DNA of 64,000 nucleotides, taken from the NCBI RefSeq assembly GCF_001647715.1, contig NZ_CP015600.1, positions 3,720,001 through 3,784,000 on the forward strand. Direction: 5' to 3'. This DNA comes from Pseudomonas antarctica. GTDB lineage: Bacteria; Pseudomonadota; Gammaproteobacteria; Pseudomonadales; Pseudomonadaceae. Positions 42,942 to 58,576 of this stretch are shown here, piece after piece (within the stretch, counting starts at the first letter, position 1; the number at the start of each line of letters is the position of its first letter). A program made the translations under genes and the position numbers. The notes beneath the pieces are model-generated. The model searched no databases, had not been told where the DNA came from, and saw nothing but the letters and a program-made list of their open reading frames with translations.

Positions 42942-44807
42942 ATGAAGCGCAGCCGGTGGTATCGTGCGTTTTCGAAAAAGGGGCCAGCCGAACATTTTTG
43001 GCTGTCATTGTTGTGCTTTTCTGTACTGGTGATTGCCAGCTTTCTGTTGTTTGAACAACAAATCCAGGACTTCCTGATTCATCTGAACCTGTACCAGCCT
43101 TCCACGCCGGCCCAGGCCCTCAACCTTGCACTGCTGCTGATCGCCCTGCTCGCCCTCGACGTGGTGCTACCGGTGCCCTCCAGCATGGTTGCCTTGCTGG
43201 CAGTGGCCATGCTCGGCAGCCTCGGTGGTTACCTGGTGATTTTTATCGGCCTGTGCCTGGGCGCCGGGTTGGGGTATGCGTTGGGCGCCGGTTATTTTCG
43301 GCTGTTATCCGGCCGCCTGGGCTTGCATCAACGTTCGCCTGGGCAGTTGGGGTATCGGCTGGGCACGCTGTCGTTGATCTGCCTGCGCGGCGTGCCGGTG
43401 TTGGCGGAAACCTCGGTGGTGGCCGCCGGGATGCAACGCTATCCGCTGCGGGCTTTTTTGCTGATTACCACATTGGCCAATGCCGGTCTCGCGCTGGCCT
43501 ACACGGCCATCGGCACGTTCCTGATCGAGCAGAACGCGCTGTTGGTGACCATCCTCGCCAGTATGGTATTGCCGGTCGCATTTGTTGCCGGCTACAGCCT
43601 GCTCAAGCGCAAGCCCCGTGTGGAGCCGCCTCTGCGCGGGCGGTTCGAGGTCAGTTACGACTACCCGGTGATCTTCACCGACCACCTGTTCGACCCGCTC
43701 AACCCTTGCCTGCACCGCGCGCTTACCGCGCAGCAGCACACCCCCGTGACGGTGATGGTGTTCGCCGATGAGCAACTGCTGCACAGCGCGCCCCAGTTGC
43801 GCGAACAGATCGACGCCTATTTCGCCGCCCATGCCGACCTGCATTTGCAAACCGCCCCCCTCGCAGTACCGGCCGGTGAACTGAGCAAAACCTCACAGGT
43901 ATTGGAGCAGCTTTACACCGACATGCTGCAACACGGCCTGGACCGGCATTGCTACGTGCTGGCCCTGGGCGGCGGCGCGGTGCTGGATGCGGTGGGCTAC
44001 GCCTGCGCCACCTTCCACCGGGGCATTCGCCTGATCCGTATCCCCAGCACCGTGCTGGCCCAGAACGACGCCGGCATCGGCGTGAAAAACGGCATCAACG
44101 CTTTCGGCCAGAAGAACCTGCTGGGCGCCTTCTACCCCGCCACGGCGGTGATCAATGACTTCCAGTTGCTGACCAGCCTGACCCGCCGCGACCAGATCGC
44201 CGGGCTGGCCGAAGCGGTCAAAGTAGCGTTGATCAAGGACCAGGCATTCTTCGAGTGGATGGAACAGCACGCCGACGCCCTCGCCCACTTCGACCACGCG
44301 GCCAGCCGCTATGCGATTCGCCGTTGCGCCGAGCTACACCTTGGGCACATCACCGGCGCCGGCGACCCATTCGAACGCGGCAACGGCCGGCCCCTGGATT
44401 ACGGGCACTGGGCCGCACACAAACTGGAAAACCTCAGCCATCACCGGCTGCGCCATGGCGAAGCCGTTGCGGTGGGCATGGCCCTGGACGGGCTGTATGC
44501 CAATGCACTCGGGCTGTTGAGCGACGCCGACACGCAACGGGTCATGAGCCTGTTGCGCAAGCTGGGCTTCAACTTGTGCCCACCGGAGCTGAGCTTGCAG
44601 GATGCGCAGGGCCGCTCACCGCTGTTGCTCGGCCTGGAGGAATTTCGCCAGCATTTGGGTGGGCAGCTGTCGATCCCCATGCTCAACCGCATCGGCCAGT
44701 CGGTAGACCTGCATGAAATCGACGGCGCGAAAATGCAAGCGGCGCTGCTACGGCTGTCGACCCGCAGCGATGCGGTAGTGCCTCTGGGCGAGGGTTACGC
44801 GCAATGA
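42942..44807 (+). CDS. eboD: EboD: DedA-like membrane domain fused to a sugar-phosphate cyclase (dehydroquinate-synthase-like)
   Basis: A 621-aa two-domain protein. Residues 15-210 contain about five hydrophobic segments with a DedA/SNARE-associated pattern (ALLAVAMLGSLGGYLVIFIGLCLGAGLGYALG; RGVPVLAETSVVAAGMQRYPLRAF). From about 225 comes a dehydroquinate-synthase-like domain with NAD motif LALGGGAVLDAVGY at 341-354 and probable metal ligands Glu424, His489 and His505. EboD proteins belong to the sugar-phosphate-cyclase family (2-epi-5-epi-valiolone synthase relatives) and are not the shikimate enzyme. The ATG at 42942 has AAAAGGG upstream. It is the first gene of the operon; the next gene overlaps it by 4 bp (ATGA). 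Confidence 0.87.
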   Translation: MKRSRWYRAFSKKGPAEHFWLSLLCFSVLVIASFLLFEQQIQDFLIHLNLYQPSTPAQALNLALLLIALLALDVVLPVPSSMVALLAVAMLGSLGGYLVIFIGLCLGAGLGYALGAGYFRLLSGRLGLHQRSPGQLGYRLGTLSLICLRGVPVLAETSVVAAGMQRYPLRAFLLITTLANAGLALAYTAIGTFLIEQNALLVTILASMVLPVAFVAGYSLLKRKPRVEPPLRGRFEVSYDYPVIFTDHLFDPLNPCLHRALTAQQHTPVTVMVFADEQLLHSAPQLREQIDAYFAAHADLHLQTAPLAVPAGELSKTSQVLEQLYTDMLQHGLDRHCYVLALGGGAVLDAVGYACATFHRGIRLIRIPSTVLAQNDAGIGVKNGINAFGQKNLLGAFYPATAVINDFQLLTSLTRRDQIAGLAEAVKVALIKDQAFFEWMEQHADALAHFDHAASRYAIRRCAELHLGHITGAGDPFERGNGRPLDYGHWAAHKLENLSHHRLRHGEAVAVGMALDGLYANALGLLSDADTQRVMSLLRKLGFNLCPPELSLQDAQGRSPLLLGLEEFRQHLGGQLSIPMLNRIGQSVDLHEIDGAKMQAALLRLSTRSDAVVPLGEGYAQ

Positions 44808-45682
44808 GCCCGATGAAAACCTGGATGACGCTTGGCCGGGTGTCCAACCTGCCCACGGTGTGGACCAACACCCTGGCCGCCGCCCTGCTCGCCAGCAGTG
44901 CCGGGGCAATGGCGCCGCCGTCGTCACTGGTGTGGGTGCTGCTGTTGATCACGCTGTCGTTGCTGTACCTGGCCGGCATGCTGCTCAACGACTGGCTGGA
45001 CGCCGACTGGGACCAGCAACACCACAACCCGCGACCGATCACCCTGGGCCTGGCCAGCCGTCAGCACGTGGGCCTGGCCACGGCGCTGTTGCTGATACTC
45101 GCTGCGGCGGCGGTGCTGGGCCTGAGCCGGCTGATCGACGAACCGCACTGGCTGCTCGGCAGTGTGGTGCTGCTGGTGGGCTGCATCTTCGGCTACAACC
45201 TGCTGCACAAGAAATACGCCCACAGCGTCTGGCTGATGGGCGCCTGCCGCTCGGCGCTGTACCTCACGGCGGCCGCCAGCCTGGCCGTGCCGCCGGAGCC
45301 GATCTGGCTGTGCGCAATCCTGCTCGGGGTGTACATCAGCGGTTTGACCTACCTGGCCCGTCAGGAGCACCGCAACCAACTGATCAGCCGCCTGCCGTTG
45401 CTGTTGATGCTGAGCCCGCTGGCCTTGGCGATCTACTCCAATAACCTGTGGTTCTGGCCGGTGCTGCTGCTCTGGCTGGGGTGGTTGGGCTGGCACTACT
45501 GGAAGTACCTGGCCAACCCGCAACAGCGCAAGGTGCGCGCGTTTATCGGGGCGGGCCTGGCCGCCTTGCCACTGTTTGATGCGCTGGTGCTGGCCGTGGC
45601 CAATCAGCCGTTGGGCAGCCTGCTGTGTGTACTGGTGTTTTTCCTGCTCCCCCACTTTCAGCGTTGGATCAAGCCGACATGA
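44804..45682 (+). CDS. eboC: EboC: UbiA-family prenyltransferase
   Basis: An integral membrane prenyltransferase of 292 aa with about eight hydrophobic segments. The first Asp-rich motif NDWLDADWD at 62-70 binds the Mg-prenyl diphosphate. The second motif region near 180-190 is weak (GLTYLARQEHRNQL). It probably attaches an isoprenoid to the cyclitol-type product of EboD or a related acceptor; the acceptor is unknown. It is coupled by ATGA overlaps to eboD upstream and eboA downstream. Confidence 0.9.
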   Translation: MSPMKTWMTLGRVSNLPTVWTNTLAAALLASSAGAMAPPSSLVWVLLLITLSLLYLAGMLLNDWLDADWDQQHHNPRPITLGLASRQHVGLATALLLILAAAAVLGLSRLIDEPHWLLGSVVLLVGCIFGYNLLHKKYAHSVWLMGACRSALYLTAAASLAVPPEPIWLCAILLGVYISGLTYLARQEHRNQLISRLPLLLMLSPLALAIYSNNLWFWPVLLLWLGWLGWHYWKYLANPQQRKVRAFIGAGLAALPLFDALVLAVANQPLGSLLCVLVFFLLPHFQRWIKPT

Positions 45683-46362
45683 ACATGCGCCAGGATTGCC
45701 TCACCGAACACCGCCACGTGTTGACCCAACAACTGGCGGCTGCCCAACTGCAGTGGTGGCAGCAGGCTCAGGCACAGCTTGCGCAACAACCGGACGCCAC
45801 CACCGCGGCGCTGTTGAGCGGCCAGTGCAAGCGTCAGCTGCCGGGCCATGCCGTCGAGCTGGCGCGTGCGTTGGTGTTGGCCAATGCGCTGGAACATACC
45901 CCGGTGGACGAACAATTGCCGCTGCTGCGCCAGCTGTTCCTGTGGGGCGACGATCAGGAAAAAATCGCCCTGCTTGGCGCCCTCGACTGGCTCGACAGCG
46001 ACGGGGTGTGCCTGGAGCTGGCCTTGCAGGCCGGGCGCACCAGTAACCCCCAGGTGTTCGCCGCCCTCGCCCTCGACACGGCCTACCCGTCACGTCATTA
46101 CCCAGAGCGCGCCTTTCACCAGTTGGTGTTGAAGGCACTCGGCATGGGCCTCGACGTCGGGCGCCTGGTTGGCCTGACGCAACACCACAGCGTCAGCCTC
46201 AACCAACTGGCGCTCGACCTGCTCGATGAACAACTGGCGGCCGAACGCACTGTGTCCCCCGGCCTGCCCCGAGTGATCGCCTTTGACCTGCTCAGCCCGG
46301 CGCAACACCAGCGCCTGCGCGGCCTGCGCCTGCCGCCGGAATGGCACGCCTACTTGAACTGA
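45679..46362 (+). CDS. eboA: EboA domain-containing protein
   Basis: A 227-aa soluble protein of the EboA family, mostly helical, with no catalytic motif that I can name. Segments such as LPLLRQLFLWGDDQEKIALLGALDWLDSDGVCLELALQAGRTSNPQVFAALALDTAYPSRHYPE look like a HEAT-like helical repeat scaffold. The ATG at 45679 overlaps the eboC stop (ATGA). Its place inside the ebo set is the main basis for the name. A structural or adaptor role in the pathway is likely. Confidence 0.85.
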   Translation: MNMRQDCLTEHRHVLTQQLAAAQLQWWQQAQAQLAQQPDATTAALLSGQCKRQLPGHAVELARALVLANALEHTPVDEQLPLLRQLFLWGDDQEKIALLGALDWLDSDGVCLELALQAGRTSNPQVFAALALDTAYPSRHYPERAFHQLVLKALGMGLDVGRLVGLTQHHSVSLNQLALDLLDEQLAAERTVSPGLPRVIAFDLLSPAQHQRLRGLRLPPEWHAYLN

Positions 46363-46394
46363 TGCACACCGCCTGCCCTTGACGAGGATTCACC

Positions 46395-47279
46395 ATGCTC
46401 AAGTACTTCGATCCGCATATTCATATGGTCAGCCGCACCACCGACGACTACCAGAACATGGCCGCCGCCGGGATCACCGGGGTGATCGAACCGGCGTTCT
46501 GGCAAGGCCAGGCGCGCACCAGCGTCGGCAGTTTCGTCGACTACTTCGACACGCTGCTGGGCTGGGAACGCTTTCGCGCGAGCATGTTCGGCATCCATCA
46601 CTTCTGCACCATCGGGCTTAACCCCAAAGAAGCGAATGACCTGTCGATCGCCAACGAAGTGCTGGAACTCCTGCCGCGCTATCTGGTGAAGGACGGCGTG
46701 GTGGCGGTGGGCGAAATCGGCTACGACGACATCACCCCCGAAGAGGATCGCTTTCTCGCGGCGCAGCTTGAGCTGGCGAAACAATTCAATCTGCCGGTGC
46801 TGGTGCATACGCCACACCGCGACAAGATCGGTGGCACCAAACGCACACTGGCGGTGATCCGCGACGTGGGGATCGCCGAGCACCTGGTGATTATTGACCA
46901 CCTCAACGAACTGACCCTGCCGCTGGTGCTGGACAGCGAGTGCTGGCGCGGCCATTCCATTTACCCCAACACCAAGATGTCGGAGCAGCGCATGGTCGCC
47001 CTGCTCAAGGAATACGGCACCGAAAAAATGGTGGTCAACAGCGCCGCCGACTGGGGCATCAGCGACCCGCTCAAGGTGCCCAAGACCGGCCAGGCGATGT
47101 TGGCGGCGGGCTTTACTGAAGCCCAGGTAGAACAGGTGCTGTTCCACAATCCGGTGGACTTTTTTGCCCAGAGCGGTCAGCTGGACAAGGGCTTGGTCAG
47201 CACCCCGCTGCCCATCGACCAACGCAAGCAATGGCAGGAAAACTCGGCCCTGCGCGGCCAGGAACCGGTGGTTAAATGA
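46395..47279 (+). CDS. eboB: EboB: TatD-like metal-dependent hydrolase
   Basis: A 294-aa TIM-barrel hydrolase of the TatD/amidohydrolase superfamily. Metal residues are visible as DPHIH (His8, His10), Glu in VAVGEIGYDD, His in VLVHTPH, His in IIDHLNE and Asp in NSAADWG. Cytosolic. It lies 32 bp after eboA with GAGG before the ATG, and overlaps eboE by 4 bp. The expected chemistry is phosphoester or ester hydrolysis of a pathway intermediate; the substrate is unknown. Confidence 0.9.
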   Translation: MLKYFDPHIHMVSRTTDDYQNMAAAGITGVIEPAFWQGQARTSVGSFVDYFDTLLGWERFRASMFGIHHFCTIGLNPKEANDLSIANEVLELLPRYLVKDGVVAVGEIGYDDITPEEDRFLAAQLELAKQFNLPVLVHTPHRDKIGGTKRTLAVIRDVGIAEHLVIIDHLNELTLPLVLDSECWRGHSIYPNTKMSEQRMVALLKEYGTEKMVVNSAADWGISDPLKVPKTGQAMLAAGFTEAQVEQVLFHNPVDFFAQSGQLDKGLVSTPLPIDQRKQWQENSALRGQEPVVK

Positions 47280-48496
47280 GCCCCCGTAGCGGCTGGACGG
47301 CGCCCCAGGTCGGGTATTGCAGCAATGTGCACCCGACCCGTGACCTGGCCGGGTTACGCACCTCCATCGAGCAGCACTTTCAGGGCGTGCGACACCTGCG
47401 CGGGCTGCACGAACAGGACAGCGGCTTGTGGATCTGCGCTCACGCTGCGGCGCAATTACAACAGGCATCGGCGTGCACGCAATTCCTCGAGTTGCTCGAT
47501 CAAACCGGCTTGCGCCTGACGTCGCTGAATGGTTTTCCCTATGGCGAATTCCATCAGGGCGCAGTGAAAGCCGAGGTGTATTTACCCCACTGGGCCGACC
47601 CCCAGCGGCTGGCCTACAGCCTGAACCTGGCGCGCATCCTCGCGCAGGCCTTGCCGGTCGACTGCCACCAAGGAGTGATTTCCACGGTGCCGCTGGGCTA
47701 TGCCGCCACCTGGACCGCGCCATTGCAGGCGCGCGCCGACGAGCACCTCAACCAACTCACTGCGGCACTCGCCAACCTGCACCGGGAAACCGGCAAGCAG
47801 ATCGTGTTCTGCCTGGAGATGGAGCCCGATTGCGTGCTGGAAAACACCGAGCAGGCCATCGCGTTCTTCCAGCGTCGGCAGCGCCTGGACCCGAACCATG
47901 CTTACCTGGCCCTGTGTTTTGATGTGTGCCACCAGGCGGTGATGTTCGAGGATTGTTATCAGTCGCTGGCCAGGCTACGTCAAGCCCAGGTGCCCGTGGG
48001 CAAGATCCAGCTGTCCAACGCGATGATCTGCCGCTTGCCAACTGAGGACGCGCATCGCCGCAAACACGTGCTCGAGACCCTGAGCACCTTCGCCGAAACC
48101 ACCTACCTGCATCAGGTAAAAGCCCTCGACCCTCTCGGCCGCATTATCAGCTGGCCGGACCTGCCGGCCGCGCTCGCCGACTGCAGCGGTTTGCGTGAAC
48201 TGCGCATTCATTTCCATATCCCGCTGTTCAGCGAACACTTGCTGTTGCCCGAACTCAGCGGCAGCCAGGCCGCGTTGGCACAGACCTTCGATTACCTGGC
48301 CGCCCATGGTGACTTCCGCCCGGTGCTGGAAGTGGAAACCTACAGCTGGGGGGTGCTGCCCGCGCAACTGCGGCCCACCACCGAGCGCGCGCAACTGGAA
48401 GGGATCGCCGCCGAATTGCGCTGGGTTGAGGACCAACTGCGCCAGCGCAACCTGCTGCTTTCCCTCAAGCACGAGGCGTACGCCCATGCGCTCTGA
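47276..48496 (+). CDS. eboE: EboE: xylose-isomerase-like TIM barrel protein
   Basis: A 406-aa protein of the xylose isomerase-like TIM-barrel group (EboE). Candidate metal-binding residues at barrel strand ends: Glu in FCLEMEPD, His in CFDVCHQAVMF, His/Glu in the HFHIPLF and VLEVETYSW regions. An epimerase or isomerase acting on a sugar- or cyclitol-like intermediate is expected. It overlaps eboB by 4 bp and eboF by 11 bp, showing tight translational coupling. Confidence 0.88.
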   Translation: MSPRSGWTAPQVGYCSNVHPTRDLAGLRTSIEQHFQGVRHLRGLHEQDSGLWICAHAAAQLQQASACTQFLELLDQTGLRLTSLNGFPYGEFHQGAVKAEVYLPHWADPQRLAYSLNLARILAQALPVDCHQGVISTVPLGYAATWTAPLQARADEHLNQLTAALANLHRETGKQIVFCLEMEPDCVLENTEQAIAFFQRRQRLDPNHAYLALCFDVCHQAVMFEDCYQSLARLRQAQVPVGKIQLSNAMICRLPTEDAHRRKHVLETLSTFAETTYLHQVKALDPLGRIISWPDLPAALADCSGLRELRIHFHIPLFSEHLLLPELSGSQAALAQTFDYLAAHGDFRPVLEVETYSWGVLPAQLRPTTERAQLEGIAAELRWVEDQLRQRNLLLSLKHEAYAHAL

Positions 48497-49922
48497 ACAA
48501 CCGCTGCTGCTGATCAATGTGGTCGGGCTGACGCCATCGCTGCTGGGTGAGGCAACGCCGCATATCAATGCCCTGCTCAAGACCGCGCAGATGGCCTACT
48601 TGCAACCGGTGTTCCCCGCCGTCACCTCGACGGTACAAGCCTCGATCCTCACCGGCGCGCCGCCGTCGCAACACGGCATCGTCGGCAATGGCTGGTACTT
48701 TCGCGACCAGGCCGAAGTGCGGTTCTGGCTGCAACCCAATGCGCTGATCGAGGGTGAAAAGGTCTGGCACACGCTCAAGCGCGAGCTTCCGGGCTTTCGC
48801 TGCAGCCAGTTGTTCTGGTGGTACAACATGTACGCCGACGTGGATGCCGCGATCACCCCGCGCCCGCACTACCCGGCGGATGGTCGCAAACAATTCGGTC
48901 TGTATTCGTCGCCACCCGGGCTGCACGAACAGATCGAACGGCAGATTGGCGAGTTTCCGTTTCCAGGGTTCTGGGGCCCGGCGGCAGGGATTGCATCGAG
49001 CCGCTGGATCGTCGATTGCGCGATGGCCGAGTTCCAGATCAACCGGCCTCACTTGCAGTTGATCTACCTGCCGCACCTCGATTACAGCTTGCAGCGCGTG
49101 GGGCCCGATCATCCCTCGATTGCCGCTGAAGTACGGGCCATCGACACGCAAGTAGGTCGCCTGCTGACCTTTGCCCAAGCGCAAGGCGCGGCGGTGATGC
49201 TGCTGTCCGAATATGGCATCGAAGCCGTCGAGCAGTCAGTGTCGATCAACCGCGTGTTGCGCGCCGAGGGCCTGTTGCAGGTGCGCCAGTCCCTGAGCTG
49301 GGAATTGCTCGACCCCGGCGCCAGCGCGGCGTTTGCCGTGGCCGACCATCAGGTCGCGCATGTCTACGTGAAGCAGGCGCAGGACATCCCACGGGTCAAA
49401 GCCTTGCTGCAACGCCAGCCCGGCATCGAGCAGGTGCTGGACAAGGCCGAACAACGCGCCTGGCAGCTGGACCACCCGCGCAGCGGCGAGCTGGTGGCCG
49501 TGGCCGCCGCCGGTTTCTGGTTCGATTATTACTACTGGCTGGATGATCGCAAAGCACCGGATTTCGCGCGCACCGTGGACATCCACCGCAAGCCCGGTTA
49601 CGACCCGGTCGAGCTGTTTATCGACCCGGCGATTCGTTTCCCCACATTGAAAGTGGCGCGCCGCCTGCTGCAAAAGAAGCTCGGCTTTCGCTACTACATG
49701 GACCTCATCCCACTGGACACCACCCTGGTACGCGGCAGCCATGGTCGCTTACCCAGCAGCGTACAGACCGGCCCGCTGCTGATCACCAATTGCGCACTGG
49801 CGCTACCGCAACACCTTGCGGCGACGGCAGTGAAGCAACTGCTCCTGGAACACTTCCTGGGGCGCCCACACCTCGAACTGGCCACAGCCAAGGAGCTTCC
49901 ATGCGGCGAGCCTTATCTATAA
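48486..49922 (+). CDS. eboF: EboF: alkaline-phosphatase-superfamily nucleotide pyrophosphatase-like protein
   Basis: A 478-aa phosphodiesterase-like enzyme of the NPP/alkaline phosphatase superfamily. The nucleophile is the Thr in FPAVTSTVQASILTG; metal ligands are likely in VVGLTPSLLG at the start, in IYLPHLDYSLQRVGPDHP and in the MLLSEYGIEAV and LDDRKAPDFARTVDIHRKPGYDPVELF regions. There is no signal peptide. The ATG at 48486 lies inside the end of eboE (11-bp overlap), and the next gene starts 22 bp before its stop. It may hydrolyse a diphosphate in the isoprenoid product. Confidence 0.88.
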   Translation: MRSEQPLLLINVVGLTPSLLGEATPHINALLKTAQMAYLQPVFPAVTSTVQASILTGAPPSQHGIVGNGWYFRDQAEVRFWLQPNALIEGEKVWHTLKRELPGFRCSQLFWWYNMYADVDAAITPRPHYPADGRKQFGLYSSPPGLHEQIERQIGEFPFPGFWGPAAGIASSRWIVDCAMAEFQINRPHLQLIYLPHLDYSLQRVGPDHPSIAAEVRAIDTQVGRLLTFAQAQGAAVMLLSEYGIEAVEQSVSINRVLRAEGLLQVRQSLSWELLDPGASAAFAVADHQVAHVYVKQAQDIPRVKALLQRQPGIEQVLDKAEQRAWQLDHPRSGELVAVAAAGFWFDYYYWLDDRKAPDFARTVDIHRKPGYDPVELFIDPAIRFPTLKVARRLLQKKLGFRYYMDLIPLDTTLVRGSHGRLPSSVQTGPLLITNCALALPQHLAATAVKQLLLEHFLGRPHLELATAKELPCGEPYL

Positions 49923-51040
49923 CTGTCCTGAGTGCATTGGCCGGGTTGGCCCATGCCCAAGGCACCACCCCCTTCGACTGCACCCAGTTCCTGCAGTTTG
50001 GAGGCAACCTCGACAAGACCCGCGCGGCCTTCGTGCAAAGCCGCGACACGCTCGCCTGGAACTGGTTTGCCTGCCTGAACCAGAACGTCTCTGCGCAAAG
50101 CCCTGATCGGGTCTGGGAGACCATGAAGCCTTCGGATCAGGTCTACCTGAGCAATGGCGCCCAGCCCCTGCCGTATGCCGAGCGCGAGCGCGTACCGATC
50201 GAGGTGATTGCACAGGCACAAAAACTGGGCATGAACCTCAACCGTACCTTTCACAACCTCAATGCCACGCAGCAAGTGGATGGGTTGATCCTGCAGATGG
50301 GCGGCCAGGTGCCGGCGGCGCAAAAAGGCCAGCCGGTACGTTTCCAACTGTTGATGGGCCAGGACACCTTCAACTACATCGTGCAGCAGAACGTCTACAA
50401 CGTGAATGGCCAGGCCGCGCTGACCAGCGACCTGTCGTTCCCCTCCACAGCCTGGGAGTTGAAGGCTGCCTGGCTGTGGATCGGCAACAACCCGACCTAT
50501 CAGCAGCAACTGATCAAGGATGGTTACTACATTGCCCAGGCCTACTATCAGCAGGACGGTAAATACCTGGTCGGCTACGCCGCGCTCAGCGGTTTGCATG
50601 TGATCAACAAACTGAACCCCGACTGGGTGTGGACCACCTTCGAAAACCGCAACAACAGCAAGTACACGGTGACCAACGCGACGCCTGCAACGCCGATGAC
50701 CAACAGCACCGGGCCCACAAAGGCGGCGCAGCCGGTGAACACGACGTTTCAGGCCAACTTCCCGGCCCTGGCGCAGTACGAGTTGATCGGCGTGCAATCC
50801 AACACGCTGCCGACCTTGCTCGCCAACTCCCAGCTGGAGTCGGCGTTCCAGAGCGAGTCTTCGTGTTTCGCCTGCCACAGCACCGCCGCGTATTCAGCGA
50901 AAAAAGGCTACTTCAATTTCGCCCTCAAACAACAGGGCGGCATCGTGTACCCCACGGCCGAACTGCCGCCCGCAGACTTTGTCGGCTACCACAAACTGGA
51001 CTTTGTCTGGTCGCTCAAACGCGCCCAGTGGCAACGCTAA
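49901..51040 (+). CDS. exported single-haem c-type cytochrome-like protein A
   Basis: A 379-aa protein with a Sec signal (cut near GLAHA/QG) and one CxxCH haem site, Cys322-Phe-Ala-Cys325-His326, only 54 residues from the C-terminus. The rest is not an ordinary cytochrome fold; it is shared with the gene at 54417 (FNYIVQQNVYN / YNYIVGNNFYN; SGLHVINKLNPDWVWTTFEN / VGLHIITK...WIWSTFEQ). It should be periplasmic and redox-active. It begins 22 bp inside eboF, which ties it to the ebo operon. The next gene follows by 10 bp. Confidence 0.85.
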   Translation: MRRALSITVLSALAGLAHAQGTTPFDCTQFLQFGGNLDKTRAAFVQSRDTLAWNWFACLNQNVSAQSPDRVWETMKPSDQVYLSNGAQPLPYAERERVPIEVIAQAQKLGMNLNRTFHNLNATQQVDGLILQMGGQVPAAQKGQPVRFQLLMGQDTFNYIVQQNVYNVNGQAALTSDLSFPSTAWELKAAWLWIGNNPTYQQQLIKDGYYIAQAYYQQDGKYLVGYAALSGLHVINKLNPDWVWTTFENRNNSKYTVTNATPATPMTNSTGPTKAAQPVNTTFQANFPALAQYELIGVQSNTLPTLLANSQLESAFQSESSCFACHSTAAYSAKKGYFNFALKQQGGIVYPTAELPPADFVGYHKLDFVWSLKRAQWQR

Positions 51041-51050
51041 GGAGCCTCAC

Positions 51051-53414
51051 ATGAGCGTATTGAATTTCCCGCGTATCTACCTGGGCGGCCATATGTTCTG
51101 GAACCCGCCGACCGCCAACAACAACGACATGTACCCGCTCTATGACGCGGTAAAAATGCAGATGAACTGGCCGTTTTTGAAGGCCTTCAACATCACCCCG
51201 GAAAACGCCATCAGCACCTTGCTGCCGTGGACAATCGCGCCGCTGTCACCCGCCAGCGTACCGCCCTACGTCATGCAGGTGCCGGGCAATGCCGGGCAGT
51301 TGACCACACCGATGATTCCCGGCGAATGGAACCTGTTCGGCGACAACGCGTGCGGCACCGTCAGCTACAACCAGACCCAATCGGTGGTCACCGGCGGCGA
51401 GTTGCCCAACGGTGGCTATGTGAGCCAGGACCCGCTGATCAACCAGAGCTTCCAGTTGCTCGGCAACCCCTTCGGCGGCGCGCCCTCCTCCCCGGCGCGC
51501 TTCGTGGACGTGAGCCCTTGGCAGAACACCTTCACCGCGCTGTATTTCGACAAGCTGGTGCTGGGCAATGCGCAGTGCGGCCTGACGCTCAATCGCCAGT
51601 TCCGCATGCTCGACCGCTTCCTGAACTTCAACTGGGCCAACCTGGGCGGCCTGGCCTATGTCACCACCACTTGGCAAACCTGTTTTCCGAAGGAAAACCT
51701 GGAGTGGGTGATCGGCAACTCGGCCTTGCTGCAAAACCTGCAAACGCAAATGGCGCAACAAAATGCCAAGGGCCTGATGTTCCGCTTTTCCACCTACCTG
51801 ACCTGCTACGACAAGAACGGCATCCTCAACAATTACCCGCCCATCGACACCCACAGCTCCAGTGCGGCCGCCCAGGCCAAGGTGCAGGCCATGTATCAGC
51901 AGGGGCTGGACAACGTCGGCGATATTTTCTTCAACCCCGCCTATAGCCGTACGGTGGGCACCCTGGGCCTGTGGTTCGAAGACGAATTCCCCACCGCCCC
52001 CGCTGGCAGACGCCTGTTACCCGCCAGCCCCGTGCCCATCTACAAAACCACGCCAGCGCAGTCGACACCGGCGCAACTGGGTGTGATCTCGGCCCAGGCC
52101 CATGGCGCTACCTTGTCGCTGGACCTGAGCAACGCCTTCCCGTTCTATCCGATCGACAGAAACGCAGCCATACCGGTAGCCGCCAAGTACCAGGCCGGCA
52201 ACTACCAGATTGGCATTCGCCAGAATGGGCAATTCAGCCCGCTGGCCAGTTTCGGTTATGACGACTATCAACAGGCGGCGTTCGACAAGCGCTCCGGCAT
52301 CCTCGACCTGACGCTGACGGCACAAGCACAGACGCAACTGCAAACCGGCACCCTGGAACTGCAACTGCAGGGCGCCACCGCCGTCACCGCCGCGACCCAG
52401 CAGATGTGGACTGCCGAAGTGGTGGAGAGCGCCAGCTTTATCGACGTGGGCGACACCCGGACGCTGCAGGTCATGGTGCAATACGACGGCCTGCCCGCAC
52501 CGGCCGGCACCACGTTGTGGGTGGCGGAATACGGCAATGCCTACATGCTGTGCACCACCGATTACTACCTGGCATTCAGCAACCCGGGCAACTTCACGCT
52601 GTTCAACAATGACCCGCAAAACCCGGCCAATAACAGCGCGAACCTGCCGCAATTCAAGGGTGCATCGACGCTGCTCAGCCAGGTGACCGAGGGCACGGGC
52701 CGCCAGCTCATGGCCACACGGCTCGCGGTGGCAGCGGATCAAATGACGCCGGTGACCTATCAGCAATTTTTGCCGACACCCGCCGCTGTCGCCTTGAGCC
52801 CGACGCTTAAGTTCGCCAACCCGATCGCGATGCAGGGCACGTTGCAGGACCCGCTCAACAGTACGGTGCAATACAGCCTGACCAAGATTCAGACCGACGC
52901 CAATGGCATCGCCAACCTGACCGTCACGGGCTTGGCACCGGGGTTTCCGACCTTGCGTTTTTTCCTGCAGGAAGGTCAGCAAACACCCACCATTCCGTTC
53001 AGCTTCCCGCTCCCGACGGCCTTCACCGACTTCCTCGCACCGCTGCGCGTACTGCCGCTGGAGCCGCAGCTGCAGCAGGATTTCGTCAATGCGTGGAACC
53101 GCATTTATATGAACAAGGACGCGGGCACCGTGATCTGGGAGACCTTCATCTACCCCTTCATCCTGCAGCCGTTCTATTACCTGTACCCGATCATGAGCAA
53201 GTTCATGCCACTCAACTCCTTGACGCGCATCGAGGGCGCCGTCGACCAGTTGATTGTGTTGATCAGTAAGGAATACCAGGAGGAAAGCACCCTGGCGATG
53301 CCCATCACACGGGACATGCCGCAAAGCCGTCGCGCGGTGCTGGAACTGTGGGCGCAGGCCCTGGTGAAACGCAATTACCCGCCCATTCCACTCAGCATGA
53401 GCGACTACGACTAA
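51051..53414 (+). CDS. large conserved hypothetical protein A (partner of cytochrome-like A)
   Basis: A 787-aa protein with no signal peptide and no family that I recognise. The N-terminus MSVLNFPRIYLGGHMFWNPP and the C-terminal segment with YPFILQPFYYLYPIMSKFMPLNSLTRIEGAVDQL recur in the 602-aa protein at 55707, so the two are paralogues. The middle (350-680) looks beta-rich with Ig-like strands. Few charged residues and many Asn, Gln and aromatics suggest a secreted or surface-like protein despite the missing signal. It may be an enzyme or an assembly protein working with the exported haem protein just upstream. Confidence 0.8.
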   Translation: MSVLNFPRIYLGGHMFWNPPTANNNDMYPLYDAVKMQMNWPFLKAFNITPENAISTLLPWTIAPLSPASVPPYVMQVPGNAGQLTTPMIPGEWNLFGDNACGTVSYNQTQSVVTGGELPNGGYVSQDPLINQSFQLLGNPFGGAPSSPARFVDVSPWQNTFTALYFDKLVLGNAQCGLTLNRQFRMLDRFLNFNWANLGGLAYVTTTWQTCFPKENLEWVIGNSALLQNLQTQMAQQNAKGLMFRFSTYLTCYDKNGILNNYPPIDTHSSSAAAQAKVQAMYQQGLDNVGDIFFNPAYSRTVGTLGLWFEDEFPTAPAGRRLLPASPVPIYKTTPAQSTPAQLGVISAQAHGATLSLDLSNAFPFYPIDRNAAIPVAAKYQAGNYQIGIRQNGQFSPLASFGYDDYQQAAFDKRSGILDLTLTAQAQTQLQTGTLELQLQGATAVTAATQQMWTAEVVESASFIDVGDTRTLQVMVQYDGLPAPAGTTLWVAEYGNAYMLCTTDYYLAFSNPGNFTLFNNDPQNPANNSANLPQFKGASTLLSQVTEGTGRQLMATRLAVAADQMTPVTYQQFLPTPAAVALSPTLKFANPIAMQGTLQDPLNSTVQYSLTKIQTDANGIANLTVTGLAPGFPTLRFFLQEGQQTPTIPFSFPLPTAFTDFLAPLRVLPLEPQLQQDFVNAWNRIYMNKDAGTVIWETFIYPFILQPFYYLYPIMSKFMPLNSLTRIEGAVDQLIVLISKEYQEESTLAMPITRDMPQSRRAVLELWAQALVKRNYPPIPLSMSDYD

Positions 53415-53473
53415 GCCACACACAGGATCGCCGGGTGGCGTAACAATCACCCGGCACACCACAGGAGTGTCCT

Positions 53474-54397
53474 ATGAACACCAGCCTCTTAAGCCGACTG
53501 TTGCTGCTGATACTGCTGCTCAGCCCTGGCGCGTTTGCCGCAGACGACAGCGGCGCCGTGTACTTCACCAACGGGGTGCACAACAGCGAGGGATGTAATC
53601 AACAGAACGGCAACTGCATTGCCGAACGCGCGCCCGGCGACCCGTCCGATCCGTTTTTTCCGGCGCAATGGATCAGCGACTGGACGATGTACCGGGTGAT
53701 GAACAACTACGAGAAAAACCCGCCGCCCTACAGCAATCCACCTTCCACCCTCACGCCTGCGGATTACACTGTTTCCAAGGGCACCAGCTACTACGACACC
53801 GCCTACATCCCAGCGGACGGCGACGGCTTCGGCGCGATGATGGAGCACTACGAGAAGTACTGCCTCCCGATCTTCCCGATCAAGAACAACAACTACACCT
53901 GCTCGTTCGTGTCCCTAGGCAACAAGGCGTACTTCCTGACGTATCCGCAGGACCGCCCGAAAGACATGCCGGCCTGCTGCATGTTTTCACCGATGAATCA
54001 TCCGCCACGCCAAAGCTTTATCGAACACCTGCCGTACAGCGCCGCGCGCAGCAAAAACCTCAACGGCAGCGTGCAGGCGTATGCGCTGGACCTGCAATCA
54101 CCGGCGGGGCCGATCCTGTTCGGGTATGCCTTCAACAAACAACAGTCGGGGTCGCCGCCCTACCGTTTGCCCCAGTCATTCTTCTTTTCGGGGGACGCCA
54201 GCGTCGCGAATGCGCCCATCGTGAGCCAGAACTACACGAATTTCCGTATCGCCAGACCCGACCCGAAACAGACCTGGGACCAAGTAGCCGCGATGTGCCC
54301 GTCGAACCCGCCGCCTTGCCAGCTGTTCGAACCGCCGGCGTCCCAAAGCAACGGCCACAAGGCGCAGTGGAACCAGCTCATGCAGCGCAAACCCTGA
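53474..54397 (+). CDS. exported cysteine-rich hypothetical protein
   Basis: A 307-aa protein with a clear signal peptide (cut near GAFA/ADDS). The mature part holds nine cysteines in short groups (GCNQQNGNC, YCLP, YTCSF, ACCMF, MCPSNPPPCQL), consistent with disulfides in the periplasm. Its haem motif count is zero. It sits alone between the two cytochrome/partner modules, 59 bp after the first, with a good ribosome site (CAGGAG). Family not recognised; function unknown. Confidence 0.78.
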   Translation: MNTSLLSRLLLLILLLSPGAFAADDSGAVYFTNGVHNSEGCNQQNGNCIAERAPGDPSDPFFPAQWISDWTMYRVMNNYEKNPPPYSNPPSTLTPADYTVSKGTSYYDTAYIPADGDGFGAMMEHYEKYCLPIFPIKNNNYTCSFVSLGNKAYFLTYPQDRPKDMPACCMFSPMNHPPRQSFIEHLPYSAARSKNLNGSVQAYALDLQSPAGPILFGYAFNKQQSGSPPYRLPQSFFFSGDASVANAPIVSQNYTNFRIARPDPKQTWDQVAAMCPSNPPPCQLFEPPASQSNGHKAQWNQLMQRKP

Positions 54398-54416
54398 CCC
54401 ACAAGGACGGATCGCC

Positions 54417-55703
54417 ATGAAAACGTTATTCCGTGTGATGTTACTCGGGCTGGTCAGCCTGTCGGCCCAAGCCCGGGAGGCGCCTCAGGCGTCGACGCTG
54501 GCCACGCAGCTCAATTGCCAGCCGCCCAGCAGCGCACCCGCCGCCACTGCCCCGCAGGACCAGTTCGATCAATACAGCTGGCAGATGTTTATCGCCTTGA
54601 ACTGGCCTGCCCAGGACGGGCAACGCGGCACGCCCAACTGCAACAAACAACCGGGCGATGCCGGCTACACGGTGTGGCAGACCTACAAAACCGTCAGCGA
54701 AATCTTCCTGCCGGGAGCCGCCAACCCAGGGCCCTGGAACAGCCCGCTGACCGCTCGCAGCCTGGGCATCATCAACATCGCTGCGCTGAAGAACAGCTCA
54801 CTGGTCAACTCCATCGACCAGGCCGTCGGCGGCTGGTTGATCGACCAGGCGGGCAACCCGACCTACTACGACATCTCGGCCAACCAGGCTTCCTATAACT
54901 ACATCGTGGGCAACAATTTCTACAACGCCAACGTGGTGTCCAAAGCCAGCAACATCAGCTTCCCCAACGGGGTCATCGAGATCAAATCGAGCTGGCGCAT
55001 GCTTACGCCCAAGGACAACGCCAGCCATTACCTGACGCAGTTCGCGCGCGTGGCCACCTTCAATAACCAGGGCCAACGCACCGGGGTGACCGAGGCTTAC
55101 CTCGGGCTGGTGGGCCTGCATATCATCACCAAGGTCAATGGCTACCCGCAGTGGATCTGGTCGACCTTCGAGCAAATCGAAAACGTGCCGCCCAAGGCCA
55201 AGGTCAATGGCCAATGGGTCGACCAGCCTGTCGCCGGCACCGCCTATTCCTACTACAACCCGCTCGCGCCTGCTGCGACGCTCAACCAGTCACCGTGCAA
55301 CTGGCAAACCCAGGGCACGCAACTGGTCTGCGTGCCCAAACCCGGTACTACGTTCCAGACGCCGAACCCACTGAACCGCGTGACACCGATTGCCGATGCC
55401 ACAGGCTGGGTGAACGCCAATTACCAGGCCAACCCCGGCCTGCAACGCAGCGTATTGAAGTACTACCAGCTCATCACCACCCAGCGCCCATTGATGCCGA
55501 ACAACCCGAGTAACCCGCTGGGCCAACCGACACCGGCGCTGTCGGCCAACGTGACCATGGAAAGCTACATCCAGCCCAACAGCAGTTGCATGAACTGCCA
55601 CTCCATGGCGACACCGGTGAAGAGCGCGTTCAAATCCGACTTTTCCTACCTGTTCAAATTCGCCAATCCGCCTGTCACCCCACACGCCACGGACAAGGAA
55701 TAG
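54417..55703 (+). CDS. exported single-haem c-type cytochrome-like protein B
   Basis: A 428-aa paralogue of the protein at 49901. It has a Sec signal (cut near AQA/REAP) and one haem site Cys391-Met-Asn-Cys394-His395, only 33 residues from the end. FDQYSWQMFIALNWP at the start of the mature protein and the shared central block (see the A copy) define the pair. It should be periplasmic. It starts 19 bp after the Cys-rich gene, and the large partner gene follows after 3 bp. Confidence 0.85.
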   Translation: MKTLFRVMLLGLVSLSAQAREAPQASTLATQLNCQPPSSAPAATAPQDQFDQYSWQMFIALNWPAQDGQRGTPNCNKQPGDAGYTVWQTYKTVSEIFLPGAANPGPWNSPLTARSLGIINIAALKNSSLVNSIDQAVGGWLIDQAGNPTYYDISANQASYNYIVGNNFYNANVVSKASNISFPNGVIEIKSSWRMLTPKDNASHYLTQFARVATFNNQGQRTGVTEAYLGLVGLHIITKVNGYPQWIWSTFEQIENVPPKAKVNGQWVDQPVAGTAYSYYNPLAPAATLNQSPCNWQTQGTQLVCVPKPGTTFQTPNPLNRVTPIADATGWVNANYQANPGLQRSVLKYYQLITTQRPLMPNNPSNPLGQPTPALSANVTMESYIQPNSSCMNCHSMATPVKSAFKSDFSYLFKFANPPVTPHATDKE

Positions 55704-55706
55704 ACC

Positions 55707-57515
55707 ATGAGCATCCTCAATGGACCACGACTGAATTTCTGGGGCGGCATCCGCACGGACGTGAGTTTGCCGAACAACTCACCGACCATTCCCTTCAACG
55801 GCAACCCGAACTGGCCGCTGTTCGACCTGACCACGTCGACCCTCGCGCCAGGTGCGCAGCCGTATACCGATGACCAGTTGAACAACATGATCAACGCGCC
55901 GGCCGGCAACTACTACACCGCTGGCGGCTGGAACCACTATGGCCAGCATGTGGTGGACATGCAGAACGCCTTGATCAGTTCCCAAGGTGCGCCGGGCAAC
56001 ATCAGCACCACCGGCGACCAGGTCGGCCAGCCCGTGTACCTGCTGGGCTCGGTGGACCCGGTCACCGGACAAGGCCCGGTGTCCGGCCCGATGATGGTAG
56101 ACCTCGACCCCAGCGCCTCGACCACCACACAGATATTCGTCGGCGGCCTGCAAATCGGCAGCAGTGACAATATCCAGTTGCTGATCCGCTGCAATGCGGT
56201 GTGCAGCAGTTTCGACGTGACCGGCCGTGTGCTCGACCCGGCGAAGATGGACGCGCCGGGCTCGTTCCATGCCAGCGGCACGTTCCAGCTGACCTTCCCG
56301 CTGAGCAGCATCGTCAGTTGGAACCAAAACAGCAGCGGCCTCAAGGCGATCATCCAGGCCCCGGGGGCGACCGGCATTGTCCTGCGTTTCGTGATGTTCG
56401 AGATGTGCCCGCAGATGACCACCGCGCAACTGGACGCGGATTACGCGGCGGGTAAATACACGCCCAACCCAAGCATCGGCCGCGTGATCGGTACCCTGGC
56501 CCCGGCGTTTGCCGGCGAGCCGTCGGGCTGCCAGCCAGGTCGGCAACTGGTCAACCAGGTCACGGGCAATGCCGCCTATGCGGCCCTGGGCAACAATGGC
56601 TTGCTGAGCCTCGATATGGTCAACGTCATCCCCAAGCAAACCTTCCGGGCCGTGCGGGACGACATCACCAGCCCTATCGGGCCGAATGCGAACTACGGGC
56701 CGGTGACGATTTCCGCTGGCGCGGCCGCGTTGATGACCCTCAACCCAACCACCAGCCCGTTGGTCAATTACTACGTGTACGGCGGCATCGTCGACGTGGC
56801 GCTCAATGCCAGCCAGCAGCAAGCCGTTAAGACCACCGCGTTGAACATCACCGCGCCCAACCCGGTGAACGGTCAAAAACTCAACGCGACCGAATCGACC
56901 TATCGGGTATACGCCGATCAGCGCAATGTGTACCTGGAGGATTACCCCAATGGCCTGACCATCACGTTACAGGTCAGCTACCTGGGCGGGCCGGTGCCCA
57001 ACGCCACCAAGGTCAGCCTGGGGGCCAGCGCACCTGGGGTTTATGATCAAAAGCAATACACCGACTTCCTCAACTTTCCGACGTCACTGACCGTCAATGC
57101 CGGCCAACAGACGGTGAGTTTTCCGGTCACCCTCAAACCCGGCAGCGCCAGCCAGGCAGGCTTTGTCGCGCTGACCTGCACGGCCAATGGCGTGGACGAC
57201 GGCGCCTTCTTCACCAACTTGCGCAAATATGCCCAGACCGACTTCGGCATTCCCAAGGGCAGCATCATCACCTGGCAGCAGATGTACCCGAACGTGCTGC
57301 GCTTTCACTATCTGGCCTTCCCCGCCATGTCCCGCTACATCCCGCTGAACCAACCCGACGCGATCATGGGCGCGAAGAACGCCATCCTCGCGCGCACTTC
57401 GGACGCCTACAAAGGCACCACACTGTTCATGCCGGTGGTGCGTTCGATGTCGCCGGCCCAACGGGCGCTGCTGCGCGCCTATCTCACCGGCAGCCCTTGG
57501 CAGCCGCCGCAATAG
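55707..57515 (+). CDS. large conserved hypothetical protein B (partner of cytochrome-like B)
   Basis: A 602-aa paralogue of the 787-aa protein, again without a signal peptide: N-terminus MSILNGPRLNFWGGIRTDVS, C-terminal WQQMYPNVLRFHYLAFPAMSRYIPLNQPDAIMGAKNAI. It is shorter by about 185 residues, mostly in the middle. It starts 3 bp after cytochrome-like B. The repeated order haem protein then large protein is the strongest sign that the two products work as a pair. Confidence 0.8.
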   Translation: MSILNGPRLNFWGGIRTDVSLPNNSPTIPFNGNPNWPLFDLTTSTLAPGAQPYTDDQLNNMINAPAGNYYTAGGWNHYGQHVVDMQNALISSQGAPGNISTTGDQVGQPVYLLGSVDPVTGQGPVSGPMMVDLDPSASTTTQIFVGGLQIGSSDNIQLLIRCNAVCSSFDVTGRVLDPAKMDAPGSFHASGTFQLTFPLSSIVSWNQNSSGLKAIIQAPGATGIVLRFVMFEMCPQMTTAQLDADYAAGKYTPNPSIGRVIGTLAPAFAGEPSGCQPGRQLVNQVTGNAAYAALGNNGLLSLDMVNVIPKQTFRAVRDDITSPIGPNANYGPVTISAGAAALMTLNPTTSPLVNYYVYGGIVDVALNASQQQAVKTTALNITAPNPVNGQKLNATESTYRVYADQRNVYLEDYPNGLTITLQVSYLGGPVPNATKVSLGASAPGVYDQKQYTDFLNFPTSLTVNAGQQTVSFPVTLKPGSASQAGFVALTCTANGVDDGAFFTNLRKYAQTDFGIPKGSIITWQQMYPNVLRFHYLAFPAMSRYIPLNQPDAIMGAKNAILARTSDAYKGTTLFMPVVRSMSPAQRALLRAYLTGSPWQPPQ

Positions 57516-57526
57516 GAGCAACGCCC

Positions 57527-58576
57527 ATGACCCTGCATATCCCGGCGCAGCCCATAGAAAACCTGCGCCCCAGCACACTGATCGCCGAGAGCCTGCTCAA
57601 CCCACGCGGTGTGTGCGTGCAAGCCGATGGCAGCCTGCTACTGGCCGAGGCCGGCTCAGGCCTGGCGGACCAGCCGTTCAGCGGCCGCGTCAGTCGGCTA
57701 CGACCCGACCCGTTGCAGCCCGGTGCCTATCTGCCCAGCGAGACCCTCGCACAAGGCTTTCGCGCCATGAACATGCAGGCGCGCATGCTGCGTGATGAAA
57801 TCATGGGGTTGTCGGACATTGCCTGCGGCGGCGGCCGTTGCCTGGCCAGCCAGACCGATTATGTCGGCGGCTCCAAACTGCTCGACCTGCAATACAGCCC
57901 GCCCGAGCCGGTGTTTCACAGCCGTGGCAATTTGAATGCGCTGTGTTATCACCCGACCCGCAACAGTTGGCTGGCGGTCAAGCCCGATACCAACCAACTG
58001 GTGGAGTTTCGCGACGGCCAGGACGAACAGGTGCTGGTGCAATTGCCCGAACTGGACATGGGCCAGGAAGCCGTCCCCGTGACCCTGGTGTATGAACCGC
58101 AGACAGACGCGGTGCTGATCAGCCTGTTCTCCGGGGAGCTGCACGGCGACCCGGCGCGCAAGGGCATCGACTTTGCCGACTTCGCAGGCCAAGTGGTCCG
58201 AGTGCACCCGGCCAGCGGGCAGATTGAGGTGGTGATACGTGGCCTGCAATTGCCCACGGGCCTGGCGCTGTGCCCGCAGGGCAACCTGCTGGTGCTGGAG
58301 CTATGCAACCACCTGCAACAACCCTTGCCGCCGGACTGGAGCGGCGAGCCGCTGCATGGCGGTTTTACTCGATTCAGTGGGCGATTGTTGCGTTGCAACC
58401 TGCACACCGGGCCGGTCGAAGTATTGGCGCGCGGGCTGGATACGCCGTCCAACCTGTGTGTGGTGCAAGGCGCGGTGTTAGTGAGCGAAGGCATGGGGCT
58501 GGCCGGCCGGCGCATACCCACACCCGACAACACGGTGGTGCCATTGAGTGGCCGGTTACGCCGGGTGCAGCTCTGA
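57527..58576 (+). CDS. beta-propeller (SMP-30/NHL-like) protein, last gene of the ebo-type operon
   Basis: A 349-aa soluble protein with the repeating LxxPRGVCVQADGSLLLAEAGSG and LQLPTGLALCPQGNLLVLELCN blade signatures of SMP-30/NHL-type propellers, in six blades or so. No signal peptide is present. Metal-site residues of true lactonases are not obvious, so a strictosidine-synthase-like or binding role is as likely as lactonase. The ATG at 57527 comes 11 bp after the previous stop. The gene ends 8 bp from the convergent ABM gene. Confidence 0.82.
   Translation: MTLHIPAQPIENLRPSTLIAESLLNPRGVCVQADGSLLLAEAGSGLADQPFSGRVSRLRPDPLQPGAYLPSETLAQGFRAMNMQARMLRDEIMGLSDIACGGGRCLASQTDYVGGSKLLDLQYSPPEPVFHSRGNLNALCYHPTRNSWLAVKPDTNQLVEFRDGQDEQVLVQLPELDMGQEAVPVTLVYEPQTDAVLISLFSGELHGDPARKGIDFADFAGQVVRVHPASGQIEVVIRGLQLPTGLALCPQGNLLVLELCNHLQQPLPPDWSGEPLHGGFTRFSGRLLRCNLHTGPVEVLARGLDTPSNLCVVQGAVLVSEGMGLAGRRIPTPDNTVVPLSGRLRRVQL

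Follow-up and report, generated by a model that had tools for sequence, protein, structure and literature searches.

An EDB-like ebo cluster of Pseudomonas antarctica and its paired, exchangeable tail of cyt and vb genes

A tail of paired genes, one pair of which is exchanged between strains, follows six ebo genes in a cluster of Pseudomonas antarctica. The cluster lies in a window of 64,000 nucleotides (the whole stretch of DNA analysed: contig NZ_CP015600.1 of assembly GCF_001647715.1, positions 3,720,001 to 3,784,000), where it occupies positions 42942-58576 as twelve uninterrupted frames, the arrangement given in an earlier note on this DNA and recovered here from the open frames. Six ebo genes (eboD, C, A, B, E and F) are followed by the tail, that is, cytA, vbA, X, cytB, vbB and a gene for a propeller protein; all of these and the other window features given below are on the + strand. 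In the Pseudomonas genomes searched, the tail is linked to ebo; the cyt and vb genes are paralogous pairs, the first of which (cassette 1) has been exchanged as a unit and the second of which (cassette 2) has repeatedly changed in presence, and vb, X and ebo recur together outside Pseudomonas. It is very likely that the cluster belongs to a type already known as EDB, a judgement made from descriptions of the P. fluorescens NZI7 cluster and not from a gene-by-gene comparison. At a probability of roughly 0.55, such a cluster works as one unit that moves an indole-type, tryptophan-derived compound over the inner membrane, where the unit then oxidises the compound or couples it, the product most likely being a grazing deterrent. 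Its chemistry (the reactions, haem binding and product) is read from sequence. With respect to those parts of the ebo and EDB literature that were examined, four features are new: the paired exchangeable tail, its relatedness to the VioB N-terminus, the fact that it recurs alongside ebo in further phyla, and the fusion of EboD to a VTT domain. For the study of ebo outside cyanobacteria, a defined paired tail is of value in that deletions could tell an exporting half from an oxidising one.

The EDB system and the likely product

The EDB cluster of P. fluorescens NZI7 (Burlinson 2013), as described in the consulted part of PMC6282210, contains a full ebo set, and transposon hits in its eboA, eboD or eboE homologues render the bacterium edible; other frames of the cluster have signal peptides. 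Nematode-repelling indoles derived from tryptophan are attributed to it in the consulted part of PMC9655573, through which it is also known that E. coli carrying EDB yields indole-3-aldehyde and indolyl-oxoacetamide, which are moderately worm-repelling (Zhou, Vergis and Mahmud 2022). By description, the window cluster resembles EDB in being in Pseudomonas, in having full ebo and in having non-ebo frames with signal peptides (cytA, X and cytB, recognised by eye). The surroundings differ: capsule-export ABC gene homologues are found just upstream of NZI7 EDB (PMC6282210), whereas a LysR gene is found in the window. In a second system, that of Nostoc punctiforme, ebo mutants accumulate the scytonemin monomer and fail to bring it to the periplasm, and ebo has been read there as a transport system (PMC6282210). 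The window cluster shares with it the ebo families and a ScyD/ScyE-type propeller; in contrast, the Nostoc ebo cluster proper, as far as the consulted description goes, is without eboD and no cyt-vb pairs are mentioned in it, whereas the window has eboD and two such pairs. Moreover, unlike the ScyD/ScyE-type propeller of the scytonemin system, that of the window has no signal peptide by eye. What the earlier note had said of ebo in plastids, of scytonemin and of nematode grazing agrees with the consulted parts of PMC5133447 and PMC6282210.

The same note had proposed a prenylated cyclitol-like compound as the product. This is not likely, because NZI7 EDB yields indoles derived from tryptophan; in addition, the large tail proteins resemble the bis-indole enzyme VioB, and the propeller resembles ScyD/ScyE. 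In its full form, the alternative holds that a prenylated cyclitol-like product is oxidised by the haem proteins and that E. coli, as a foreign host, forms the indoles as by-products. EboD is indeed a relative of sugar phosphate cyclases and EboC a UbiA-type prenyltransferase, a prenyl-cyclitol product has been proposed for ebo generally (PMC5133447, consulted in part), and two Streptomyces plasmids carry an inositol-3-phosphate synthase with ebo and no EboD match. Set against the scytonemin monomer that piles up in Nostoc ebo mutants, the indoles of NZI7 and the matches of the tail to the VioB and ScyD/ScyE models, this alternative is nonetheless unlikely. It is possible that a prenylated cyclitol serves as a carrier and not as the product, as was proposed for ebo by Klicki et al. 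(consulted in part), and the fusion described below makes this lipid-carrier idea testable. Ubi-297, a relative of EboC, transfers farnesyl groups to quinoline acids in membrane fractions (PMC9235831, consulted in part).

In the indole-export reading, EboD would make a cyclitol, EboC would attach a prenyl chain to an aromatic group or a cyclitol, and the VTT (DedA-type) domain fused to EboD may help the lipid-linked molecule to cross the membrane, with EboF cutting a phosphate bond. cytA and cytB, as predicted c-type haem proteins, would be electron acceptors in the periplasm, and their partners vbA and vbB would bind the substrate or shape it, a role that VioB's N-terminal region may also have. 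Late steps might fall to X and the propeller, as they do to ScyE in the case of scytonemin.

Linkage of the tail with ebo in Pseudomonas

Among 199 Pseudomonas genomes, vbA was found in 24, and a strong eboF match, approx. 1.1-1.2 kb upstream, was obtained in exactly these genomes; none of the 199 has vbA without eboF, and one further genome gave a weak match of 56 residues in the eboF search (protein searches in this analysis scored candidate lists of capped length). In 18 of the 24 vbA-bearing genomes, a further match shows the place of vbB, which in one of them (G169) is 201 kb distant; the 6.6-Mb genome of the window has one full vbA copy. A wider set of 54 named loci was obtained by a pattern scan of GTDB representatives (80 stretches matched, 56 confirmed), which means that distant relatives are under-sampled. 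The loci are mostly from Pseudomonas, with others from Azomonas, Rheinheimera and records named Pantoea and Paucimonas. cytA and eboF stand beside vbA in 54/54, and eboB is present in 53, the exception being cut by a contig end. Thus, the tail belongs with ebo: the co-occurrence search proposed in the earlier note did not find the tail families mostly apart from ebo in Pseudomonas. The ebo tree places two of the loci, L029 (Paucimonas, a metagenome-assembled genome) and L032 (Pantoea sp. Cy-639), within Pseudomonas; the records may be misnamed or the clusters transferred.

The neighbours of the cluster differ between loci. Near other copies, the genes that flank the window cluster were seen rarely: lysR (at least 60%) in 2/54, mmsA in 2/54 and abm in 1/54. 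Upstream, this comparison covered at least 1 kb in 46 of the 48 loci whose eboD is long; downstream, it covered 400 bp in 49 of the 51 that have a propeller. (The label mmsA is given to an aldehyde dehydrogenase gene beyond the LysR gene of the window, which we take to be mmsA.) The differing flanking genes mean that the cluster occupies many sites, and it seems to move as a whole.

At the junction between the two halves, as the earlier note had observed, eboF and cytA overlap by 22 bp, the eboF stop ending at 49922 and the cytA ATG lying at 49901. With gene starts chosen by script, the overlap is 22 bp in 38 of the 54 relatives, 31 bp in 12, 53 bp in 1 and 13 bp in 1, the remaining 2 being broken or partial rows that give no figure. 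At this junction, a crude scan found no + strand promoter-like or terminator-like site; in total, the scan counted 1 promoter-like site against 3.4 expected and 19 terminator-like sites against 17.0 expected. Across the 54 loci, spacing is nearly constant at eboD/C, B/E, E/F, F/cytA, cytA/vbA and cytB/vbB and varies at the other junctions.

Two cyt-vb pairs make up the tail

The tail begins with cytA (49901-51040), which encodes an exported protein with a signal peptide seen by eye and one CxxCH motif (approx. 50864-50878), and with vbA (51051-53414), a relative of the N-terminal part of VioB for which no signal peptide was seen by eye; together, they form cassette 1. Cassette 2 consists of their paralogues cytB (54417-55703; signal peptide by eye, CxxCH at approx. 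55587-55601) and vbB (55707-57515; no signal peptide seen by eye). The profile match probability is 99.8 for cytA and cytB, which are 27% identical, and 99.0 for vbA and vbB. Owing to this twofold paralogy, the tail can be read as cytA-vbA, X, cytB-vbB and propeller, in which a single pair occurs twice in diverged form. A signal peptide (by eye) together with CxxCH, the sequence mark of a c-type cytochrome, is found in both cytA and cytB, and the motif is kept in 54/54 cytA and 39/40 cytB orthologues. The earlier note had held that none of the six tail genes has a defined job; this stands with respect to experiment, whereas sequence comparison allows three of the families to be assigned.

VioB of the violacein pathway and RebD-type enzymes serve as the comparison for the vb proteins. 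At E values of up to 0.01, the VioB model matches 30/30 vbA members and 19/25 vbB members, and vbA and vbB align with its N-terminal half. Unlike VioB, they are without the ferritin-like half and far under the family cut-off. For these two reasons, a full VioB was rejected as an identity for vbA. A ferritin-like partner encoded elsewhere in the genome was likewise rejected, in view of the distribution of PF12902 given below.

Between the cassettes lies X (53474-54397), an exported (signal peptide by eye), cysteine-containing protein of an unnamed ebo-associated family for which no family was found in Pfam or NCBIfam; relatives 54-58% identical to it are encoded near ebo genes in Mycetohabitans and Gloeothece. 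The last gene encodes a ScyD/ScyE-like propeller (NF033206; 57527-58576), and all 29 propeller members examined are matched by the NF033206 model. Its start is more likely ATG 57527, 11 bp past vbB, than TTG 57497, the choice of the earlier note, because in relatives the gene starts after the vbB stop in 28/41 and overlaps vbB by 4 bp in 11/41. From either start, no signal peptide was seen by eye.

Several observations weigh against the indole-export reading. The VioB model, whose cut-off is 1250 bits, gives scores of only 33.8 and 18.1, a genome-level search with the model at E 0.001 did not report the window's own vbA and vbB, and PF12902, the ferritin-like part of VioB, was not found by Pfam in either protein. 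It occurs in only 1 of the 24 vbA-bearing Pseudomonas genomes, and in that of the window not at all. Given the low scores, the missed genome-level match and the missing ferritin-like part, VioB-like catalysis is not to be assumed. The propeller, at 66 bits, is under the NF033206 cut-off of 80. Moreover, vbA, vbB and the propeller may be in another compartment than the cyt proteins, as the former are without a signal peptide by eye and the latter have one, and this is a weak point of the proposed mechanism. None of the twelve genes was recognised as tryptophan-activating. In other taxa, ebo clusters without a tail match are found in a genome outside the genus (G382), Salipiger, Roseivivax and Ketogulonicigenium. 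Finally, the predicted structure of vbA contains one well-modelled Ig-like beta-sandwich, which, if the model is right, suggests binding and not catalysis.

The last point leads to an alternative in which vbA and vbB are Ig-like binding or scaffold proteins and not enzymes, and in which the variability of the cassette stems not from chemistry but from an arms race against grazers, phages or neighbouring organisms. Secreted and accessory parts often have folds of this kind, and the twofold pairing with a CxxCH protein, along with the pairing with ferritin-like proteins elsewhere (see below), makes redox chemistry the easier reading; hence, we regard a pure scaffold as quite improbable.

Exchange and loss of cassettes

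Evidence that cytA and vbA form a unit comes from the comparison of two loci, L047 and L062, in which ten genes are 94-99% identical but cytA is only 73% and vbA 65% identical. DNA identity between them is approx. 95%, drops just past the cytA start and is back to 95% within X, with a single short rise to 91% at the cytA-vbA junction inside the low stretch; in the control pair L048-L062, it is 86-99% across the same stretch. Thus, cytA-vbA is exchanged as one unit between strains. In cassette 1, L047 is nearer to locus L039 (83% and 72%), which is still too distant to be called its donor. Trees point in the same direction. When ebo clades were forced on the cytA-vbA data, they were rejected (p 3.8e-7, 1.3e-8 and 7e-5), and cytA-vbA clades forced on the ebo data were also rejected (p 0.005, 0.002 and 0.017), p values that are too good by an unknown amount since the clades were picked post hoc from the trees. 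All trees were quick ones under a single simple model, and those used for the two cassettes exclude four of the 54 loci (L020 and L069 by hand, two more by a length filter). The joint exchange suggests that cytA and vbA work together and set something strain-variable. With the other ten genes near-identical, the swap offers a test case from nature by which end-product differences between close strains could be traced to two genes.

Cassette 2 shows a different kind of variation. The tail is in its full form in 40 of the 54 loci; in 11, X-cytB-vbB is missing and the propeller follows vbA, and 3 are at a contig edge. On the EboB+EboE+EboF tree (51 rows, 11 of them short), the presence of cassette 2 changes at least 6 times, or 5 when weakly supported branches are disregarded. 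Rheinheimera and Azomonas have the full form, and in L037 a 35-residue vbB match stands directly before the propeller; for these reasons, repeated loss of cassette 2 is the simpler reading, with the root of the tree not inferred.

The lower edge of the exchanged stretch is close to a hairpin in the vbA-X gap, which, at 59 bp, is the widest gap within the tail. The hairpin (53430-53455; 26 nt, without a T run) lies near the downstream edge of cassette 1, and 41 of 42 vbA-X gaps fold with at least 6 consecutive pairs. It may be a determinant of transcript stability or a foothold for recombination. A classical terminator was rejected for want of a T run, and a dispersed repeat was rejected because the palindromic pattern occurs at 2 places in its own genome and a control pattern at 1. 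In L038, L052 and L066, the vbA-X gap is 138-181 bp instead of the usual approx. 60 and contains long hairpins, as if a small element had been inserted.

The ebo genes and the EboD-VTT fusion

Family models bear out all six ebo assignments of the earlier note, and eboA-F are all present and adjoining, as expected of an ebo cluster. In the ebo tree, the window proteins have P. antarctica, P. fluorescens P5A and P. salomonii as their nearest neighbours, which points to the fluorescens group of Pseudomonas. eboC (44804-45682) encodes a UbiA-type prenyltransferase (PF01040, 48.0 bits; 82.8 bits to the EboC model NF035940, below its cut-off of 250). It is followed by eboA (45679-46362), with an EboA_domain (NF035938, 131.9 bits, above the cut-off of 50), and by eboB (46395-47279), whose product is a TatD-like hydrolase (PF01026) 65% identical to Mycetohabitans EboB. 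eboE (47276-48496) encodes a TIM-barrel protein (TIM_EboE, NF035939, 398.6 bits, above the cut-off of 250), and eboF (48486-49922) a type I phosphodiesterase/nucleotide pyrophosphatase (PF01663, 203.7 bits).

In the product of the first gene, eboD (42942-44807), a VTT membrane domain of the DedA type stands at the N-terminus and is fused to a cyclase part, a 3-dehydroquinate-synthase-like domain of the sugar phosphate cyclase kind. In particular, VTT is matched by Pfam at residues 78-192 with 39.1 bits (cut-off 33.9), DHQ_synthase and DHQS_C are also matched, and the UptA model gives only a weak match (E 0.002). With 621 residues, the protein is longer than the EboD proteins of several other ebo clusters (381-406); that of Mycetohabitans has no VTT, in contrast to that of the window. 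A term search did not find the word DedA in the main text of the ebo papers PMC5133447 and PMC6282210. The fusion is not restricted to this type of cluster, as the EboD of a Salipiger plasmid also has the VTT domain (44% identity over 613 residues to the window EboD). This gene (L140:2828-4729) is part of a Rhodobacterales ebo cluster without a cyt, vb, X or propeller match.

Relatives outside Pseudomonas

X was found in 4 of 72,556 annotated plasmid records, all 4 of which also have eboB, and eboB itself is in 51 of the 72,556 at the limit used; the plasmid counts depend on the E-value limits (0.01, 1e-30 and 1e-5). The 13 regions inspected come from 12 records, 10 among the 51 eboB-bearing ones and 2 that lack eboB, and serve as examples, not as a census. 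The plasmid vb proteins give E values of 8.6e-22 to 7.9e-15 in the vbA/vbB profile search and are assigned to vbB with a profile match probability of 99.8 (five rows, one of them the closer Gloeothece vb). vb of the kind that pairs with a ferritin-like gene occurs in 8 records, 6 with eboB; the other two, from Azospirillum, have vb and the ferritin-like gene with no ebo match nearby.

In Mycetohabitans NZ_CP062180, vb, a ferritin-like gene and X stand with six ebo genes, and in NZ_CP132742 the positions of the matches, which alone were compared, agree with this order. A third Mycetohabitans plasmid has vb, the ferritin-like gene and ebo, with an X match of just 59 residues. In Aureibacter (Bacteroidota), vb, a ferritin-like gene and the ebo set are in line, EboC being known by annotation only. 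These clusters are like that of the window in that vb adjoins the ebo set, in Mycetohabitans together with X, but the partner of vb is ferritin-like there and a CxxCH protein here. On the plasmid of Gloeothece PCC 7822, EboB, EboD, X, a PF12902 ferritin-like protein, vb and a divergent cyt-vb pair are encoded within approx. 12 kb, a stretch in which the other four ebo genes were not found. In Azospirillum sp. B510, X, vb and a ferritin-like gene are together, approx. 400 kb from ebo on the same plasmid.

The cyt family is also found apart from ebo. It was detected in 5 of 274 genomes of the class (that of the window included) and in 17 of 398 of the phylum, 15 of which are outside the genus; of these 15, only G382 has a strong eboB, approx. 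670 kb away, and none of ten inspected cyt stretches (L126-L135) has an ebo match. Among the three top matches from outside the genus, G350 has an internal stop; in the other two, G382 and G774, the cyt relative adjoins genes for a GMC flavoprotein and a small subunit, the small subunit gene of G774 matching FAD-SLDH. The window's cytA and cytB thus belong to the same family as the CxxCH partners of GMC/FAD sorbitol-dehydrogenase-like complexes, and by analogy these neighbours suggest that cytA and cytB accept electrons, although, unlike in G382 and G774, there is no GMC flavoprotein among the twelve genes of the window. In L128, the tested neighbours of the cyt gene were not GMC, by a family search whose scope was this stretch and those of G382 and G774.

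Taken by itself, the separate occurrence of these families would suit an alternative in which one transcript serves two functions, with ebo exporting some compound and the tail being an unrelated periplasmic redox set attached in Pseudomonas. The ebo clusters without tail matches, the distinct history of cassette 1 and the cyt genes without ebo are what such a reading would lead one to expect. It is hard to reconcile with the co-occurrence in 24/24 genomes at varied chromosomal sites, with the presence of eboB in every plasmid record with X and with its presence in 6 of the 8 with ferritin-paired vb, and we think it very doubtful. A single indole-exporting and oxidising unit remains the preferred reading. 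It can be extended, tentatively and with confidence well below even, to a general scheme in which ebo is a lipid-carrier exporter (in some lineages with a DedA-type flippase within EboD) that feeds interchangeable oxidation modules, each a VioB-N-like protein with a c-type haem or ferritin-like protein. In this scheme, VioB would have descended from such a module by fusion, and the clusters would form an unrecognised family of oxidised indole or quinoline pathways in Pseudomonadota, Cyanobacteriota and Bacteroidota, in which strains change the end product by swapping cytA-vbA.

Some further gene sets were seen near these relatives. Upstream of the vb-ferritin-ebo cluster of Mycetohabitans, L137:5498-8559 encodes a LodA/GoxA-type oxidase and a flavoprotein annotated as tryptophan 7-halogenase. 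In a gammaproteobacterium, two CxxCH genes, one of the cyt family, are near a nucleoside-hydrolase gene (L128:9000-12849, by Pfam), and another Pseudomonas genome has a set resembling it, as judged from sequence starts alone (L135:6758-12146). Streptomyces camelliae has a ScyD/ScyE gene near ebo together with an inositol-3-phosphate synthase and no EboD match. In the Streptomyces plasmid stretches L143:5411-6565 and L145:5187-6374, inositol-3-phosphate synthase genes lie beside ebo with no EboD match, as if they were a substitute cyclitol maker. A predicted tet(W/32/O) resistance call at L143:16347-16670 coincides with a gene for a short 2Fe-2S protein and appears to be spurious.

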